Shown one piece after another: positions 29,487-39,072 of a stretch of DNA of 64,000 nucleotides. The notes below the pieces were generated by a model that made no database searches, was not told where the DNA came from, and saw only the letters and a list, made by a program, of their open reading frames with translations. The stretch is from contig NC_008044.1 of assembly GCF_000014065.1 (NCBI RefSeq), forward strand, positions 2,999,501 to 3,063,500, written 5' to 3'. The translations under genes and the position numbers were made by a program. How positions within the stretch are numbered: position 1 is the first letter of the stretch; every line of letters starts with the position of its first letter. The stretch comes from Ruegeria sp. TM1040 (GTDB lineage Bacteria > Pseudomonadota > Alphaproteobacteria > Rhodobacterales > Rhodobacteraceae).

Positions 29487-30316
29487 CAAAGAATAGCGTC
29501 ACGCGCGGCGCTGTTGACCTCAGGGCGTTGACCAAACCAGCGTTCAAAGCCCGGTACGGCCTGATGCAACAACATGCCCAGACCATCAACCACAGTACAC
29601 CCAGCCTCTTCGGCGGCCTGCAGAAGCTCCGTTTTGAGGGGGTTATAGACAAGATCCGTGACCACAATACCAGAGTGCAACCCATCCAGTGGCACCCGCA
29701 AACGACGCTGGCCTGTCATTCCAAGAGACGTGGTGTTCACTACGAGACTTGCATCCTCGATCACATTCCCGGCCTCCACCCAGTCCACGGCAGTGACCTT
29801 CGACCCAAATGTCTGCGCCACTTCTTTAGCGCGGGAGCGGGTTCGATTGGTGAGCCGGATCTCGGGAACGCCGGCCTCAATCAGCGATGCGATCACGGCG
29901 CGGCTGGCACCTCCCGCGCCAAAAACGGTCGCAGGCCCCGATTTTGCGTCCCAATCTGGCGCGCCTTCATGGAGGTTGGTAATAAAACCATATCCATCCG
30001 TGTTGTCGGCAACGATGGCGCCATCTTCGTGAAAAATCAGAGTGTTCGCCGCGCCCATCAATTTTGCACGATCCGTCACCTTGTCGGCGATTTCCATGAT
30101 CGACTGCTTGTGCGGGATTGTCACATTCGCGCCTACAAATCCCATTCGTGGCATCATGCGGACAACGGACTCCAGATCCTCTGGTTCCACGTGCATCGGC
30201 ATGTAATGTCCGTCGACTCCATAAGTCTTGAGCCAGTGACGGTGCAACTGAGGAGACTTTGAATGGGCAATCGGGCAGCCAATCACACCAGCAAGCGGGA
30301 TCCTGTTCTCTGTCAT
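29486..30316 (-). CDS. aroE: Shikimate dehydrogenase (NADP+)
   Basis: A 276-residue enzyme reducing 3-dehydroshikimate to shikimate in aromatic amino acid synthesis. The substrate site GCPIAHSKSPQLH is at residues 14-26, and NVTIPHKQ carries the catalytic Lys near 70. NTDGYGF supplies the conserved Asp; VFGAGGASRAV is the NADP Rossmann loop and NRTRSRA the 2'-phosphate clamp. Its ATG overlaps the maf stop and its stop overlaps coaE. Confidence 0.96.
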   Translation of the reverse strand: MTENRIPLAGVIGCPIAHSKSPQLHRHWLKTYGVDGHYMPMHVEPEDLESVVRMMPRMGFVGANVTIPHKQSIMEIADKVTDRAKLMGAANTLIFHEDGAIVADNTDGYGFITNLHEGAPDWDAKSGPATVFGAGGASRAVIASLIEAGVPEIRLTNRTRSRAKEVAQTFGSKVTAVDWVEAGNVIEDASLVVNTTSLGMTGQRRLRVPLDGLHSGIVVTDLVYNPLKTELLQAAEEAGCTVVDGLGMLLHQAVPGFERWFGQRPEVNSAARDAIL

Positions 30317-30912
30317 TGTTCAATAATCCCCTGCAGTCCTAGATAGTTCATGAGCTCCAACATCGGCAAACCCAAGACATTAAAGTAGCTGCCGTCAATG
30401 GTTGTAAACAGCCGCACGCCCTCTTCTTCGAGTTTGTACGCTCCAACCGCATGACGGATGCTCTCCCAGTTACGCTCCACATAGCTCTCCAGATAGGCAT
30501 CGCTGGCCATGCGCATCACCAGCCGCACCTGTCCAACGTGACGCCAGAGGGGCTTGGCATCGCAATAGATCACCGCAGCCGACAAAAGCATATGACGCTT
30601 TCCGCGCATCGCTTTCAACTGCTGCAACGCCTGGTTTTTGTCTTTGGGTTTTGACAGGAGCGTGCCTTCAAAATCGAGCACCTGATCGCAGCCCAGAACC
30701 ATCTCCTCAGGGAACTTTCCCGACACCTTGCGGGCTTTGGCTTCGGCAAGTGTGTCCGCTATATCTCTTGGAGACGCCCCGTCCGCTTCGAGCGCCGTCT
30801 TAATGGCGTCTTCATCCACGCGTGCGACTTCTACTCGAAAGTCGACCCCCGCCTGACGGAGCAGTTTTGCGCGGATCTCAGATCCAGAAGCGAGCAGGAT
30901 GTGGGTACTCAT
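30313..30912 (-). CDS. maf: Maf family nucleoside triphosphate pyrophosphatase
   Basis: A 199-residue Maf protein, which removes pyrophosphate from non-canonical or UTP/dTTP-type nucleotides. Signatures: LLASGSEIRAKLLRQAGVDF at the start, the Lys-rich EAKARKVSGKFPEEMVLGCDQVLDFEGTL segment, and KLEEEGVRLFTTIDGSYFNVLGLPM at the end. The open frame reaches 31032, but the family start and size fit the ATG at 30912. It is the gene directly left of the putative origin. Confidence 0.93.
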   Translation of the reverse strand: MSTHILLASGSEIRAKLLRQAGVDFRVEVARVDEDAIKTALEADGASPRDIADTLAEAKARKVSGKFPEEMVLGCDQVLDFEGTLLSKPKDKNQALQQLKAMRGKRHMLLSAAVIYCDAKPLWRHVGQVRLVMRMASDAYLESYVERNWESIRHAVGAYKLEEEGVRLFTTIDGSYFNVLGLPMLELMNYLGLQGIIEQ

Positions 30913-31330
30913 GTGGAAAACCCTATGGGAAAACGTCTGATCATTCTGGGACGTTTTGTATGATTTTGCACCCTCAACGCAAGGGCGGGAGAAGTTCCGA
31001 ATTCTGGGGTGATTCCTCCGCGATTCCTCCATGGGGGATTGGGATAACTTTGGGGGAGTGGATAACTTCTCTTCTCCCAGCTTGTCCTCCGGTTATCCCC
31101 AGATTCACCTTCGTAAAGGATTTCTTAACGGCTATGTTTTTAAGGCTATTAAGAAGTTATTCACCAAGAAGGCGGAAATGAGGCAGCCACTTTGTCCACG
31201 TTGTGCAGAACCGTACTGATGACTCGATAATCCACTGGTTTAGGGGTGCACTACAAAAACATCATCCTTATAAAACTTATTAATTATATTAGGGTGGCCC
31301 AACGACCCTCCGTACTTGAGGAAACCAGTC
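30913..31330. other. Putative chromosomal replication origin (oriC)
   Basis: A 418-base gene-free segment between maf (leftward) and hemJ (rightward). DnaA-box-like 9-mers (consensus TTATCCACA): TTATCCACT at 31057-31065 (minus), TTATCCCCA at 31093-31101 (plus), TTATCCCAA at 31039-31047 (minus), TTATTCACC at 31157-31165, TTGTCCACG at 31192-31200 and TAATCCACT at 31228-31236. Four GANTC (CcrM methylation) sites lie at 31011, 31022, 31102 and 31221; the first two are in a direct repeat GATTCCTCC. An AT-rich stretch at 31256-31292 could be the unwinding element. Gene orientation diverges here, parS and parAB lie 3-7 kb to the right, and hem/maf neighbours fit alphaproteobacterial origins. No clear CtrA site (TTAA-N7-TTAA) was found. 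Confidence 0.75.
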
Positions 31331-31786
31331 ATGGATCTCACCGATCTGATGTTCACGCTCTATCCATACGTGAAATCGCTTCACATCATGGCAGTGATCA
31401 GTTGGATGGCAGGGCTTTTCTATCTTCCCCGTCTGTTCGTGTATCACGTGGAAGAAGCTGAGAAGGTGAAGGATGTGGCACCGATCTTTCTCACTATGGA
31501 ACACAAGCTCCTCAGAGTGATCATGGGGCCTGCAAGCGTAGTCACGTGGATCGCAGGGCTCTTTATGGTGTTCACACCGGGCTTGGTGGACTGGTCTTAC
31601 GTCTGGCCCTGGACCAAGGGTGCCTCGGTGCTTGCAATGACGTGGTTTCATCATTGGCTGATGTTTCGACACAAGGACTTCAAAGAGGGCAAAAACACCA
31701 TCACAGGCCGCCAGTATCGCCTGATGAACGAGGTCCCAACGCTCTTGATGGTCGTGATCGTGGTCTCGGTGATCTTCAAGTTCTGA
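31331..31786 (+). CDS. hemJ: Protoporphyrinogen oxidase HemJ
   Basis: A 151-residue membrane protein with four helices. The family signatures [25 protein letters not shown] at the start and [25 protein letters not shown] near the end are present; the conserved His and Lys residues take part in haem binding and catalysis. HemJ performs the penultimate step of haem synthesis in bacteria without HemG or HemY. The ATG at 31331 has GAGGAAACC upstream; an in-frame TTG at 31316 is not needed. It flanks the right side of the putative oriC. Confidence 0.93.
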
Positions 31787-31916: not shown

Positions 31917-33188
31917 ATGACCGAGCAATCTCTGAACCTTTCTGATCTCAAGGCGCAAAGCCCGAAGGCCCTGTTGGCTATGGCTGAGGAGCTGGAGATC
32001 GAAAACGCCTCCACTATGCGGAAAGGCGAGATGATGTTCCAAATCCTGCGTGAACGCGCGGATGAAGGCTGGAACATCGGAGGGGACGGGGTTCTCGAGG
32101 TCCTGCAGGACGGATTTGGCTTCTTGCGCTCGCCCGAAGCAAACTATCTGCCGGGTCCAGACGATATCTATGTCTCTCCTGACATGATCCGCCAGTTTTC
32201 GCTACGCACTGGGGATACGGTAGAGGGGCAGATCAAGGCACCACTGGAAAATGAGCGCTACTTTGCGCTGACCACGGTGACAAAGATCAACTTTGAAGAG
32301 CCCGAAAAGGCCCGTCACAAGATTGCATTCGACAATCTGACACCGCTCTATCCGGACGAGCGTCTGCAGATGGAAATCGAGGATCCGACGGTTAAGGATC
32401 GCTCAGCACGCGTGATTGACCTTGTCTCGCCGATCGGCAAGGGCCAGCGTTCGCTTATTGTAGCGCCGCCGCGAACCGGTAAGACAGTTCTACTGCAAAA
32501 CATCGCCCATTCGATCGAGCAGAACCACCCTGAGTGCTATCTGATCGTGCTTCTGATCGACGAGCGCCCTGAAGAAGTCACCGACATGCAGCGCTCCGTC
32601 AAAGGCGAGGTCGTGTCCTCCACGTTTGACGAACCCGCAGCGCGCCACGTGGCGGTTTCCGAGATGGTCATTGAAAAAGCCAAGCGTCTGGTCGAACATA
32701 AACGTGACGTTGTGATCTTGCTCGACTCGATCACGCGTCTCGGCCGTGCTTTCAACACGGTTGTTCCATCGTCAGGCAAGGTTCTGACTGGTGGTGTGGA
32801 TGCAAACGCTCTGCAACGTCCCAAGCGCTTCTTTGGGGCTGCGCGGAATATCGAAGAAGGTGGCTCTTTGACGATCATCGCGACCGCGCTTATCGACACG
32901 GGCAGCCGTATGGACGAGGTTATCTTTGAAGAATTCAAGGGTACGGGTAACTCTGAGATCGTTCTGGATCGCAAGATTGCAGACAAGAGGGTCTTCCCTG
33001 CGATCGACATTCTCAAGTCGGGAACGCGGAAGGAAGACCTCCTGGTCGACAAAGGCGATCTGGCAAAAACCTTTGTGTTGCGTCGCATCCTGAATCCGAT
33101 GGGGACCACCGACGCAATTGAGTTCCTGCTGTCTAAGTTGAAGCAAACAAAGACAAACTCAGAGTTTTTTGACTCGATGAACACCTAA
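31917..33188 (+). CDS. rho: Transcription termination factor Rho
   Basis: A 423-residue RNA-dependent ATPase hexamer. N-terminal Rho domain ([25 protein letters not shown]), the primary RNA-binding cold-shock fold with [24 protein letters not shown] (about residues 62-85), and the motor with P-loop VAPPRTGKT (about 181-189), Walker [17 protein letters not shown], the Q loop and the R loop [13 protein letters not shown]. Length is typical. The ATG at 31917 gives the usual N-terminus; a GTG 14 codons upstream is unlikely. Confidence 0.97.
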
Positions 33189-33218
33189 ACGGGGTAGGGC
33201 GGAGAAAGAGGCCATCCC

Positions 33219-34505
33219 ATGGAGACGATCTTTGCGTTGGCCACCGCCCAAGGAAAGGCCGGTGTCGCCGTTATACGTGTATCCGGTCCGCATGCGATCG
33301 AGATCGGCGAAAAACTAACGCGCAGGACGCTACCTGCGCGAGGTATGATATTTTCAAAATTGAAAGATAGCGCAGGTGAGATCCTTGATGAGGCTCTGGT
33401 CTTGTCGTTTACGTCACCTGACAGCTTCACCGGCGAAAATATCGTAGAGTTTCAATTACATGGCAGCATAGCTGTCGTATCTGCAGTGATGTCTGCGATT
33501 GAGGAAACCGGTGTTGCGCGTCTTGCGGACCCCGGAGAGTTTACCCGCCGGGCGTTGGACAACGGAAAGCTCGATCTAACTCAGGTTGAGGGCCTTGCTG
33601 ATCTTATTGATGCGGAGACGGAAGCTCAAAGAAAACAGGCGCAGGTCATCCTTGCAGGCACACTGGGGGATCTGGCAGACCGTTGGCGAACAGATCTTAT
33701 TCGTGCGGCGTCCCTGATTGAGGTTACAATCGATTTCGCGGACGAAGAAGTACCTGTGGATGTCACGCCAGAGGTAAAGCAGCTTCTTTCTGGCGTATTG
33801 CACGACATTGAAAAAGAGGTCGATGGCGTTGCTATTGCCGAGCGCATTCGCGAGGGTTTTGAAGTGGCTATTGTCGGCTCGCCCAATGTCGGAAAGTCGA
33901 CGCTCCTCAATGCGCTTGCTGGGCGCACCGCAGCGATCACATCTGAGTATGCGGGAACAACGCGCGATGTGATCGAGGTTCGAATGGACCTCGCTGGCCT
34001 ACCAGTTACCTTATTGGATACGGCCGGACTGAGAGAGACTGACGATCATGTTGAGGGGATTGGTATCCGTCTCGCGCAGGAGCGCGCAGAAAGGGCTGAC
34101 ATCCGCGTATTCCTGGCCGAAGAGGATGAGAGTTTCTCAATTCAGATGCGAGAAGGGGATCTCCGACTGCTTCCGAAGGCGGATGAGCGACGGTCTGCGA
34201 AGGGCGCGATTTCTGGCAGAACAGGGCAGGGCGTAGATGACTTGGTATCGCGTATATCGGATACCCTTAGAAATCGGACTGCCCATGATGGTATTGCGAC
34301 AAGAGCACGGCATCGGGAGACGATGAACCGTGCTGTGCTGAGTTTGCGCCAAGCGATTGAAGTCGTTGAACAGGGGCCCGAGTTTTATGACCTGGCAGCT
34401 GAGGACATGAGATCGGCGATCCGAGCGCTAGAGTTGCTAGTGGGTCGGATAAATGTAGAGAATCTTCTGGATGAGATTTTCTCGAGTTTCTGTTTGGGAA
34501 AGTAA
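33219..34505 (+). CDS. mnmE: tRNA uridine-5-carboxymethylaminomethyl synthesis GTPase MnmE
   Basis: A 428-residue GTPase that, with MnmG, modifies the wobble uridine of tRNAs. The N-terminal tetrahydrofolate-binding domain starts METIFALATAQGKAGVAVIRVSGP; the helical domain contains ALDNGKLDLTQVEGLADLIDAET; the G domain has GSPNVGKSTLLNAL (about residues 219-232), DTAGLRETDD (G3) and the switch GTTRD. The C-terminal FCLGK carries the conserved Cys. The stop is 12 bases before the likely mnmG start, with an AAGGAG site between. Confidence 0.97.
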   Translation: METIFALATAQGKAGVAVIRVSGPHAIEIGEKLTRRTLPARGMIFSKLKDSAGEILDEALVLSFTSPDSFTGENIVEFQLHGSIAVVSAVMSAIEETGVARLADPGEFTRRALDNGKLDLTQVEGLADLIDAETEAQRKQAQVILAGTLGDLADRWRTDLIRAASLIEVTIDFADEEVPVDVTPEVKQLLSGVLHDIEKEVDGVAIAERIREGFEVAIVGSPNVGKSTLLNALAGRTAAITSEYAGTTRDVIEVRMDLAGLPVTLLDTAGLRETDDHVEGIGIRLAQERAERADIRVFLAEEDESFSIQMREGDLRLLPKADERRSAKGAISGRTGQGVDDLVSRISDTLRNRTAHDGIATRARHRETMNRAVLSLRQAIEVVEQGPEFYDLAAEDMRSAIRALELLVGRINVENLLDEIFSSFCLGK

Positions 34506-34517
34506 GGAGTGTTTCAC

Positions 34518-36388
<1,871 letters not shown>

Positions 36389-36392
<4 letters not shown>

Positions 36393-37006
36393 GCGATGGT
36401 CGAGGAAACTTGGAACTTGATGTTTCACGTGAAACATTAGAACGACTGATGGTCTTCTCAGAGGTCCTTAAAAAGTGGAACCCGAAGATCAACCTGGTTT
36501 CTAGAAAGAGCATCGACGATCTTTGGACCCGTCACATTCTGGATAGCATTCAAGTCTTTGATGCCGCTCCAGAGGGCGGGGCTTGGCTAGATATCGGGAG
36601 CGGTGGTGGACTTCCTGGCATTATTGTCGCGATTTTGGCAGCGGAAAAGTCACCGGATACTCGGATTACGCTAATGGAGAGTGATCTGAGAAAATGTGCT
36701 TTCCTGCGTAATGCAGCACGAGAGTGCGGTGTGTCAGTAACGGTTAAGTCGAAACGTATCGAGAGTGCCCCAGAAGAAAATTGTGACGTCTTATCTGCAC
36801 GCGCGTTGGCCGATCTTGATAATCTCTTGGGGTTTGCTGAACGTCATCTCGCCGAAAATGGTACAGCGATGTTTCCGAAGGGCGCGAACTGGAAAAAAGA
36901 GGTGGATAACGCGCGCAAGAGATGGCGGTTTGAGTGCGATGAGATTACAAGTGTAACTGAGCCTGGTGCTGTCATCCTCAAGATAAAGGGAGTAGAGCGT
37001 GTCTGA
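36389..37006 (+). CDS. rsmG: 16S rRNA (guanine-527-N7)-methyltransferase RsmG (GidB)
   Basis: A 205-residue SAM-dependent methyltransferase that modifies G527 of 16S rRNA; its loss gives low-level streptomycin resistance elsewhere. Visible: [32 protein letters not shown], the SAM-binding [13 protein letters not shown] (about residues 66-78) and [15 protein letters not shown] second parS site encodes part of its N-terminus (DVSRETL). The ATG overlaps the mnmG stop and the 3' end overlaps parA by 8 bases. Confidence 0.95.
36421..36436. other. parS: parS centromere site 2
   Basis: A second perfect TGTTTCACGTGAAACA palindrome, inside the rsmG reading frame (codons 11-16), 1,911 bases from site 1 and about 560 bases before parA. 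Two exact copies of a 16-base palindrome this close are not expected by chance. Confidence 0.94.
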
Positions 37007-37811
37007 CTTTTCCCGTTTTGGAGTCCCCCGGATCATTGCGATCGCTAACCAAAAGGGGGGCGTGGGAAAAACGACTACTGCGATTAACCTCGCCGCCGCT
37101 TTGGTAGAGGAGGGGATGCGTGTTTTGCTGGTTGATCTCGATCCCCAAGGGAACGCGTCGACAGGACTGGGCGTCGAAGTTGATGACAGAGAGCACACGA
37201 CTTATGATCTGCTGGTTGAGGAAGCAGAACTCTCACAGGTGATCCGCGAGACAGATCTAGAGGATCTTTGCATTGTCCCGGCAAACGTAGATCTAAGCTC
37301 TGCTGACATCGAGTTATTTTCTAACGAAAAACGGAGCTTTCTTCTCCACGACGCCCTGCGTCAACCAGCTATGACGGAATATGATTGGGACTATATCCTG
37401 ATTGATTGCCCGCCGTCGCTCAATCTCCTGACTGTGAACGCAATGGTTGCCGCACATTCAGTGCTGATTCCGCTACAGAGTGAGTTCTTTGCTCTCGAAG
37501 GTTTGTCCCAACTCATGCTCACGATCCGTGAGGTCCGACAAGCTGCTAATCCTCAGTTGCGCATCGAAGGTGTCGTTTTGACGATGTATGATCGTCGAAA
37601 TAACCTGTCCCAGCAGGTTGAACAGGATGCACGGGATAATCTCGGGGATCTCGTGTTTCGGACAAAGATCCCAAGAAATGTGCGGGTAAGCGAGTCACCA
37701 TCCTACGCGATGCCGGTACTGAATTACGATCCAAGCTCTCTTGGAGCAAAAGCTTATCGTCAATTAGCTGGTGAGATTATTGCCAACCACCAAGACATCG
37801 CGGCACAATAA
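36999..37811 (+). CDS. parA: Chromosome partitioning ATPase ParA (Soj)
   Basis: A 270-residue deviant Walker ATPase. After a short N-terminus, IIAIANQKGGVGKTTTAINLA (about residues 12-32) is the deviant P-loop with the signature Lys; LLVDLDPQGNAST is the A' motif; YILIDCPPSLNLLTVNAM is Walker B. No N-terminal HTH is present, as in chromosomal ParA. It starts at GTG with GGGAG 7 bases before. It forms an operon with parB and drives segregation of the parS-origin region. Confidence 0.96.
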   Translation: MSDFSRFGVPRIIAIANQKGGVGKTTTAINLAAALVEEGMRVLLVDLDPQGNASTGLGVEVDDREHTTYDLLVEEAELSQVIRETDLEDLCIVPANVDLSSADIELFSNEKRSFLLHDALRQPAMTEYDWDYILIDCPPSLNLLTVNAMVAAHSVLIPLQSEFFALEGLSQLMLTIREVRQAANPQLRIEGVVLTMYDRRNNLSQQVEQDARDNLGDLVFRTKIPRNVRVSESPSYAMPVLNYDPSSLGAKAYRQLAGEIIANHQDIAAQ

Positions 37812-37829
37812 GAAAAAGAGGGGCGAACA

Positions 37830-38729
37830 ATGGCAGATAAAAAGACTAAACCGCGTGGCTTGGGTCGTGGCTTGTCGGCGTTGATGGCAGACGTAAATGC
37901 GGATCCGGTGAGCACTGAAGGAGGACGACAGCCCCGAAATGCTGAAATCCTCGTTCCTATCGAAAAAGTGCAGGCGAATCCGGATCAGCCGCGTCGCCAA
38001 TTCCTCCAAGAGGACCTGGATGATCTTACCGCATCCATCAAGGAGAAGGGTGTTCTCCAGCCGCTCATTGTTCGCCCGCGTGATGGTGGCATCTATGAAA
38101 TCGTAGCTGGTGAGCGCCGCTGGAGAGCGGCGCAAGCTGCTCAACTCCATGAGGTGCCTGTGCTCATCCGAGATTACTCGGATGTTGAGATGCTCGAAGT
38201 TGCCATTATCGAGAACATTCAGCGGTCTGACCTAAATGCACTTGAAGAGGCCCAGAGCTATAAGCAACTGATGGACAAGTTCGGCCATACGCAGGAAAAG
38301 ATGGCGGAGGCGCTCGGGAAGAGCCGCAGCCACATTGCGAACTTGGTTCGCCTACTGCATTTGCCTGAGGATGTTCAGTCACTTGTTCTGGATCGCAAGT
38401 TGTCTGCCGGCCACGCCAGAGCGTTGATTACTTCTGACAATGCCTCGGAGCTCGCAAAGAAAATCGTAAAGGGCGGTCTGTCTGTGCGGGCCACGGAGTC
38501 GCTTGTAAAGAAAGATGCGGCAGGGACTACATCTTCGTCTAATTCACGCAAAGCAAAACCGCAGGCAGACAAGGACGCGGATACGCGAGCGCTGGAGAAT
38601 GACTTGTCAGCGATGATCCGTATGAAGGTATCGATTGACCACAAACCCGGTGGCGAATCTGGGGTTGTGACGATTTCCTACGAGACTTTGGATCAGTTGG
38701 ATGATCTGTGTAATCTGCTCAGCCGTTAG
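37830..38729 (+). CDS. parB: Chromosome partitioning CTPase ParB (Spo0J)
   Basis: A 299-residue parS-binding protein. The basic N-terminus PRGLGRGLSALMADV contains the ParA-stimulating Arg-rich motif; the CTP-binding domain has NPDQPRRQFLQEDLDDLTASI and GERRWRAAQAAQL (about residues 92-104). The central HTH domain contains MAEALGKSRSHIANLVRLLHLPE, and a low-complexity linker leads to the C-terminal dimerisation domain. An AAGAGGGG site precedes the ATG. Its targets are the two parS sites upstream in mnmG and rsmG. The 3' end overlaps a convergent gene by 11 bases. Confidence 0.96.
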   Translation: MADKKTKPRGLGRGLSALMADVNADPVSTEGGRQPRNAEILVPIEKVQANPDQPRRQFLQEDLDDLTASIKEKGVLQPLIVRPRDGGIYEIVAGERRWRAAQAAQLHEVPVLIRDYSDVEMLEVAIIENIQRSDLNALEEAQSYKQLMDKFGHTQEKMAEALGKSRSHIANLVRLLHLPEDVQSLVLDRKLSAGHARALITSDNASELAKKIVKGGLSVRATESLVKKDAAGTTSSSNSRKAKPQADKDADTRALENDLSAMIRMKVSIDHKPGGESGVVTISYETLDQLDDLCNLLSR

Positions 38730-39072
38730 GGCGTGACCAAATGAAGATCATGACCCCTCCAAGCGTAAGGCCCTGAATAAGCAGGACATGTGTCGGGACA
38801 TTCAGGATGATCGAAATAGAAAAAACAGCGGCGACCGAAAGGGTGGCCGCTTTTTTTGCGGATGGACCGATGGCGCCACGTTCGTTCCAATCTAGGATCA
38901 TCGGGCCAAATGTTGCATGTGAGAGCAACCAGTCATGCAGACGTTCTGACGATCTTGCAAAAAAGAAAGCTGCCAGTAACAAGAAGGGCACGGTTGGCAA
39001 CAGCGGCAGCACGACTCCAACCCCTGCCAAAAGAACGCTCGTCAGACCAAGGCAGAGGTAAATAAATCTCAT
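38719..39072 (-). CDS. DUF454 (YbaN) family inner membrane protein
   Basis: A 117-residue membrane protein beginning MRFIYLCLGLTSVLLAGVG and continuing VLPLLPTVPFLLLAAFFFARSSERLHDWLLSH, the pattern of the YbaN/DUF454 family, with a third and fourth hydrophobic segment near the end. No function is known. It starts 3 bases after the hemW stop on the same strand and its 3' end runs 11 bases into the end of parB on the other strand. Confidence 0.9.
   Translation of the reverse strand: MRFIYLCLGLTSVLLAGVGVVLPLLPTVPFLLLAAFFFARSSERLHDWLLSHATFGPMILDWNERGAIGPSAKKAATLSVAAVFSISIILNVPTHVLLIQGLTLGGVMIFIWSRPNG

Follow-up and report, generated by a model that had tools for sequence, protein, structure and literature searches.

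Where does replication of the Ruegeria sp. TM1040 chromosome begin, and which DNA element would start it? The genome comprises 4,153,699 bases in three contigs, and the stretch of DNA analyzed here, hereafter the window, covers 64,000 bases (positions 2999501 to 3063500) of the contig of 3,200,938 bases, denoted C3. A preliminary description of the window had singled out a 418-base segment without genes, located between maf and hemJ, as the probable chromosomal origin, with genes diverging from it. The gap is delimited by the start codon of maf on the minus strand (position 30912) and the ATG of hemJ (31331), and no credible gene was detected within 30913-31330, so that the ORFs and the orientations of the two flanking genes bear out both points (Table 1). 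Beyond maf lie dnaQ, coaE, and aroE, and beyond hemJ are rho, mnmE, mnmG, rsmG, parA, and parB. Comparison of the window with Rfam at gathering scores and a tRNA scan yielded no matches. The segment is almost certainly the chromosomal oriC, a reading that is favored because the GC-skew minimum falls at this site and because its DnaA boxes are conserved in relatives; the density of the boxes, the nearby parS sites, and the conservation of the gap support the original proposal as well. The origin of a Roseobacter-group chromosome is thereby placed to within a few hundred bases.

Table 1 Features of the predicted origin region, in window coordinates; percentages refer to the same place in 108 aligned gaps and, for DnaA boxes, to a box with ≤2 mismatches
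Feature	Position	Strand	Basis or conservation
maf (Maf-like nucleotide pyrophosphatase), left flank	30313..30912	-	NCBIfam TIGR00172, 121.9 bits (cut-off 117.15)
DnaA box TTTTCCACA, 1 mismatch	30912..30920	-	81%
Predicted oriC, gene-free gap maf/hemJ	30913..31330		Skew, boxes, conserved gap
GANTC site	31011..31015		27% (background 4%)
GANTC site	31022..31026		39%
DnaA box TTATCCCAA, 2 mismatches	31039..31047	-	38%
DnaA box TTATCCACT, 1 mismatch	31057..31065	-	46%
DnaA box TTATCCCCA, 1 mismatch	31093..31101	+	72%
GANTC site, not conserved	31102..31106		6%
Weak DnaA box TTATTCACC, 2 mismatches	31157..31165	+	21%
Weak DnaA box TTGTCCACG, 2 mismatches	31192..31200	+	29%
DnaA box TTCTGCACA, 2 mismatches	31202..31210	-	74%
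GANTC site	31221..31225		26%
Anchor DnaA box TAATCCACT, 2 mismatches, adjoins tract	31228..31236	+	91%
Second, tandem box position, unrecognizable in the window	31239..31247	+	22%
Conserved trinucleotide tract CTACAAAAACATCATCCT, proposed DnaA single-strand loading tract	31251..31268	+	Family alignment
AT-rich stretch, proposed duplex unwinding region	31269..31296		Base composition
hemJ (protoporphyrinogen oxidase), right flank	31331..31786	+	NCBIfam TIGR00701, 125.8 bits, slightly under the cut-off (138.05)
parS, exact TGTTTCACGTGAAACA	34510..34525		Exact match
parS, exact	36421..36436		Exact match
parA	36999..37811	+	Top matches ParA-type partition ATPases, under their cut-offs
parB	37830..38729	+	Pfam ParB_N, HTH_ParB, and ParB_C

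Cumulative GC skew had been named as a check on the proposed origin, and its minimum falls at the segment, at position 30853, 60 bases from the gap, whether the 64-kb window or 104 contiguous kb is considered. The remainder of the chromosome was sampled as 19 stretches of 20 kb rather than plotted whole. From 3.06 Mb via position 1 to 1.22 Mb, all nine sampled stretches have positive skew; from 1.40 to 3.00 Mb, nine of ten are negative. The sampled skew therefore flips at the gap and again between 1.22 and 1.40 Mb, near a dif-like site with one mismatch at position 1344020, which is separated from the gap by 47% of the circle (1.51 and 1.69 Mb by the two arms). Replication starts at dnaA in many bacteria, and in TM1040, dnaA is located at C3:66, where the deposited numbering begins. 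An origin beside dnaA would demand a skew switch there; instead, the skew is positive on both sides of position 1 (0.016 before it, at 3.15 Mb, and 0.055 and 0.050 beyond it), and the switch lies at the candidate gap, about 170 kb off. An origin at dnaA was accordingly rejected as exceedingly improbable.

Several local features of base composition were also recorded. The one sampled stretch with the wrong sign for its arm, C3:2800001-2820000 (+0.016), perhaps represents an inversion or an island, and one of the four 8-kb window pieces to the left of the gap likewise has wrong-sign skew (3015501, +0.008). TA skew is noisy, with no clean switch. Across mnmE-mnmG-rsmG-parA-parB (window positions 33001-39000), GC content drops to 0.49-0.54, compared with 0.54-0.61 in most of the window, and skew climbs to between +0.08 and +0.14. 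Dif-like sites, searched with ≤2 mismatches to what we take to be the dif pattern, occur once per contig (C1:76380, C2:712328, and C3:1344020), each with one mismatch, so that XerCD dimer resolution may be available to the two smaller replicons as well.

DnaA boxes were defined as matches to TTATCCACA with ≤2 mismatches. Eight such boxes are located within 30912-31330, three of them with one mismatch. The preliminary description had listed six, two with one mismatch; the boxes themselves stand, whereas both counts were too low. The box at 30912, which begins one base outside the originally delimited segment, is included among the eight. The background consisted of 8,701 windows from the 19 sampled chromosome stretches and the analyzed window, with the gap excluded; none contained at least three boxes at ≤1 mismatch (mean 0.04, maximum 2), and none contained eight at ≤2 mismatches (mean 0.75, maximum 6). 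Four GANTC sites, the sites of CcrM, are packed into about 215 bases of the gap, a density of at least four that is reached in 24 of 8,720 windows, the gap's own included; three of the sites recur at a shared place in 26 to 39% of the relatives' gaps and the window's combined, and one recurs in 6%. The direct repeat GATTCCTCC has copies at 31011 and 31022. Finally, the 45 bases from 31247 are 80% AT, a value attained by 1.6e-5 of 45-base windows when the gap's own is counted. The GANTC cluster, the repeat, and the AT-rich stretch had all been pointed out previously.

The expected proximity of parS and parAB to the segment was likewise recovered. The whole genome contains two exact parS sites, both 3 to 5 kb from the gap, and no others at up to two mismatches. 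In this respect, TM1040 resembles Hyphomonas, where parAB lies about 7 kb from hemE (PMC6650430). Both parS sites are embedded in the 5' ends of ORFs: that at 34510 starts one base past the initial G of the GTG codon listed as the mnmG start, and that at 36421 starts 32 bases past the first base of the rsmG start. A published set of Rhodobacteraceae origins, from the same family by inference, was positioned from skew, a local dip in GC, and parAB proximity; in the parts compared, these origins are software predictions presented without anatomy (PMC6699656). One of the three "DnaA box" motifs given there, TGTTTCACG, corresponds to one half of the parS palindrome, and some published Rhodobacteraceae origins may have been drawn towards parS by this motif.

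Conservation of the gap was examined in loci obtained from a HemJ scan of named genomes (80, the best of 91) and from 150 family genomes (30). Among the named matches listed, the HemJ of Epibacterium sp. Ofav1-8 (97%) and that of Tritonibacter mobilis (96%) come nearest. Three loci were left out: one at a contig end (L041), one without a maf match (L121), and TM1040's own copy (L100). The resulting 108 gaps (the window and 107 relatives) span 321 to 452 bases, with a median of 403; in 80 sequences, the coefficient of variation of the gap length is 0.046, compared with 0.28 for the hemJ-rho gap. Mean column conservation does not distinguish the two gaps overall (0.50 versus 0.52), and columns at ≥0.8 conservation number 54 of 418 in the gap versus 17 of 88 in the hemJ-rho gap; what counts in the comparison is therefore the constant length and the boxes that stay in place. 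At the eight box places of the window, a box with ≤2 mismatches is found in 21 to 91% of the 108 gaps (background, 1.5%; maximum, 6.5%), the conservation in relatives that the original proposal called for. The clearest conserved block other than a box is CACTACAAAAACATCATCCTT, at 31249-31269. One locus, L032, titled Nocardioides marinus DP1N28-1, carries a maf-oriC-hemJ region of the Rhodobacteraceae type with 81% HemJ identity; this record is probably mislabeled or contaminated.

The gap can be compared with Caulobacter crescentus Cori and Rickettsia oriC, which belong to the hemE/COG1806 type (PMC1914354). The size of about 400 bp, the gene neighborhood, the DnaA boxes, and the AT-rich part are all shared with these origins, but in TM1040 neither hemE nor COG1806 flanks the gap. 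An exact CtrA site, TTAAN7TTAA, is absent from the window's gap and present in 17 of the 108 gaps; because of this absence, control of the TM1040 origin by CtrA, as in Caulobacter, was rejected.

The conserved block contains a tract of triplets, the core pattern of which has a single exact copy in the genome. The strand complementary to 31251..31268 reads 3'-GAT GTT TTT GTA GTA GGA-5'; thus, its first triplet is 3'-GAT-5', and the third, 3'-TTT-5', lacks G. Of the 86 aligned family sequences, 70 begin the tract with CTA (3'-GAT-5'), and the lag-3 identity of the tract is 0.61, compared with 0.31 in shuffles. A box with ≤2 mismatches ends 12 to 14 nt before the tract in 74 of the 86 sequences and 0 to 4 nt before it in 22; 12 sequences show both spacings, and 2 show neither. 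The basal unwinding system (BUS) of Bacillus subtilis consists of DnaA boxes followed by 3'-GAT-5' DnaA-trios (PMC6669920, PMC10721633, PMC8287927); the spacing between box and trio peaks at 10 to 13 bp, and the boxes are often tandem, the upstream one nearer the consensus (PMC8287927). The gap has the same layout on one strand, namely, an anchor box, a spacer in the 10- to 14-nt range (about 13 nt, able to hold a second box), a same-side tract, and then AT-rich DNA. Unlike in the B. subtilis BUS, the first G is kept and the middle A is not.

A profile of the anchor box and tract, built from 86 dereplicated sequences, was used to follow the element through changes of gene order. It matches 131 of the 150 family genomes at E ≤ 0.1, leaving 19 without a match. 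Twenty-two family matches were mapped, comprising 20 of the 23 with a profile match but weak or no HemJ and 2 with HemJ about 1.1 kb off; in all 20 mapped genomes without a HemJ match, the element sits between maf and rho. Across the class, 139 of 193 genomes match at E ≤ 1, mostly weakly. Of the best 18 matches outside the family, 17 map to this neighborhood, and one (L167) has none of the neighbor genes. Intermediate arrangements persist in some relatives: maf-ori-hemE-hemJ (L169) and maf-PF03618-ori-hemE-hemJ (L170) within the family, and maf-PF03618-ori-hemE-hemJ-rho (L152) and maf-PF03618-ori-hemE-ferrochelatase-hemJ-rho (L151) outside it. In the last three, hemE and COG1806 (PF03618) both flank the origin, as in the Caulobacter type, and the cluster order still seen in relatives is maf-COG1806-ori-hemE-(hemH)-hemJ-rho. 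In TM1040, hemE is a single-copy gene 361 kb from the gap, COG1806 is absent from the genome, and hemJ, the next gene of that cluster, is directly beside the gap.

Because the element is kept between maf and rho, hemJ, or hemE across the mapped genomes other than L167, these data support an origin that stayed in place while neighboring genes were lost, apparently in the order COG1806, then hemE, then hemJ, as judged from few intermediates. The preliminary description had raised the possibility of an unmoved origin with a different haem gene beside it, which is supported and refined here in that hemE and COG1806 are gone from between maf and hemJ. Changed origin-flanking genes are thereby explained as gene loss beside a stationary origin, extending the Caulobacter/Rickettsia arrangement (PMC1914354). 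The same maps bear on whether the tract serves the downstream haem gene as a promoter or leader. Its position would suit such a role, given that the tract ends about 60 bases before hemJ and elsewhere mostly starts 50 to 200 bases before hemE, but the element is retained upstream of each of hemE, hemJ, and rho, the last in the 20 mapped family genomes without a close HemJ. A haem-gene leader is therefore highly improbable and was rejected, as the tract outlasts changes of the downstream gene.

A wider test drew on 92 further families of the class, each represented by one genome, and covered the 450 bases upstream of hemE; a family was included if hemE was listed and the contig was long enough, and in some of these, hemE may no longer lie at the origin. 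With a simple C-W-W score, the hemE-upstream regions stood apart from shuffles only moderately (29% versus 2% at score 16), and therefore, a motif was trained on half of the families and evaluated on the rest against dinucleotide shuffles. The held-out motif is significant at p ≤ 0.05 in 64 of the 92 families (at p ≤ 0.01 in 54%), and 94% of these 64 tracts begin 50 to 200 bases before hemE; in 28 families, no significant tract was found upstream of hemE at p ≤ 0.05. Learning seeded with the published NAN rule led to the same motif in a rotated register, as did one of six random starts, and the other five produced poorer motifs. On the strand opposite the box consensus, read 3' to 5' in the 64 families, the first base is G (0.86), the middle base is T (0.40), A (0.32), or G (0.28) and never C (0.00), and the third is T (0.66) or A (0.28). 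Thus, the class-wide tract retains the first G rather than the middle A.

The published BUS rule was implemented in our own code as a box with ≤2 mismatches to TTATCCACA, a spacer of ≤16, and at least three NAN triplets, leaving out the exceptions for tandem and species-specific boxes. In this form, it finds nothing in the window's block and is satisfied in 24 of the 86 family blocks and in 38 of the 92 hemE-upstream regions, compared with 17% of shuffles. Four NAN triplets, TAG TAG GAA TAT, do occur in the window in a different register, at a distance of 24 nt from the anchor box. Under a looser version of the rule with a longer spacer, CAT-type tracts could be read as NAN; pure CAA- and CCA-type tracts cannot.

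The DnaA protein itself offers a possible reason for the relaxed middle base. The B. subtilis complex grips the guanine through Arg202 and Glu228 and the middle adenine through Asn187, and a middle T or G works worse there than A or C (PMC10721633). The DnaA of TM1040 was aligned with a reference chain, with positions counted from the DD-Q motif, and 71 DnaAs were compared: that of TM1040, the 30 best-scoring of 193 class genomes, and 40 chosen mainly for clear tracts. The reference chain, 8btg_A, is one that we take to be the B. subtilis DnaA complex structure, with which the residue letters and numbers agree. Of the guanine-reading positions, 202 is Lys and 228 is Glu in 71 of 71 proteins. 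At the adenine-reading position 187, Tyr (62) or Phe (6) is present in 68, and the other three carry Asn (2) or His (1); the TM1040 protein has Tyr there, which is Tyr206 in its own numbering; in the two genomes with Asn187, no tract was found at p ≤ 0.05.

Given that the guanine-reading residues are kept and that Tyr or Phe replaces the adenine-reading Asn, DnaA of this class would read the tract as 3'-G[T/A/G][T/A]-5' rather than 3'-GAT-5'. A change of Asn187 with an intact guanine reader, such that the middle adenine is no longer selected, predicts origin tracts of this form, and the observed tracts agree (G kept, middle relaxed), except that C is never used. We consider such a shifted DnaA-trio code in Alphaproteobacteria, with the first G captured and the middle adenine unselected through the change at residue 187, a tentative proposal that falls somewhat short of even odds; two observations count against a higher rating, namely, the complete lack of C at the middle base and the off-register NAN run in the window. 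The match between residue and tract is a correlation across one class. If the proposal is correct, the published search rule often misses alphaproteobacterial tracts, a class-wide rule would tie one DnaA residue to its base in origin DNA, and the shifted code could improve origin prediction in Alphaproteobacteria. Among the open-licence papers listed, no description of a DnaA-trio variant in Alphaproteobacteria was found; the supplementary tables of PMC8287927 may list predictions for this class.

Strand composition may also shape the tract, since the middle C is at 0.00 although C is the single change that B. subtilis tolerates there, and since the whole strand is C-poor. Taken further, the oriC assignment could hold while the tract is low-stability, strand-biased DNA with a three-base period, the bases of which are not read by DnaA. 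The tract does adjoin the AT-rich stretch, 28 of the 92 families lack a significant tract, and the middle T, A, and G occur in similar shares with C rare at all three triplet positions, all of which would be expected of such DNA. Conversely, the three-base periodicity is well above that of composition shuffles, the motif is recovered in held-out families (64 of 92, nearly always within the 50- to 200-base range ahead of hemE), the opposite strand scores lower in 78 of 92, NAN-seeded learning arrives at this motif in a rotated register, and the distance to the anchor box is fixed. On balance, passive low-stability DNA appears rather unlikely, and the tract is probably a DnaA loading and unwinding element.

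In the preferred scheme, DnaA would occupy the box cluster of the gap, and a DnaA oligomer would grow out of the anchor box (31228-31236) along a single strand of the tract (31251-31268) and open the AT-rich DNA at 31269-31296. Forks would then depart in both directions, and ParABS would next segregate the origin region. Taken jointly, an oriC at this site, the DnaA-tract mechanism, and ParABS segregation very likely provide the best explanation of the locus; the origin itself is ordinary, and the new point is the conserved tract and its putative reader. A variant of the layout occurs in L066 and L078, both Marivivens, and in L092 (a MAG), where about 14 bases between the anchor box and the tract are absent and the box abuts the tract, as would fit the loss of one tandem box position.
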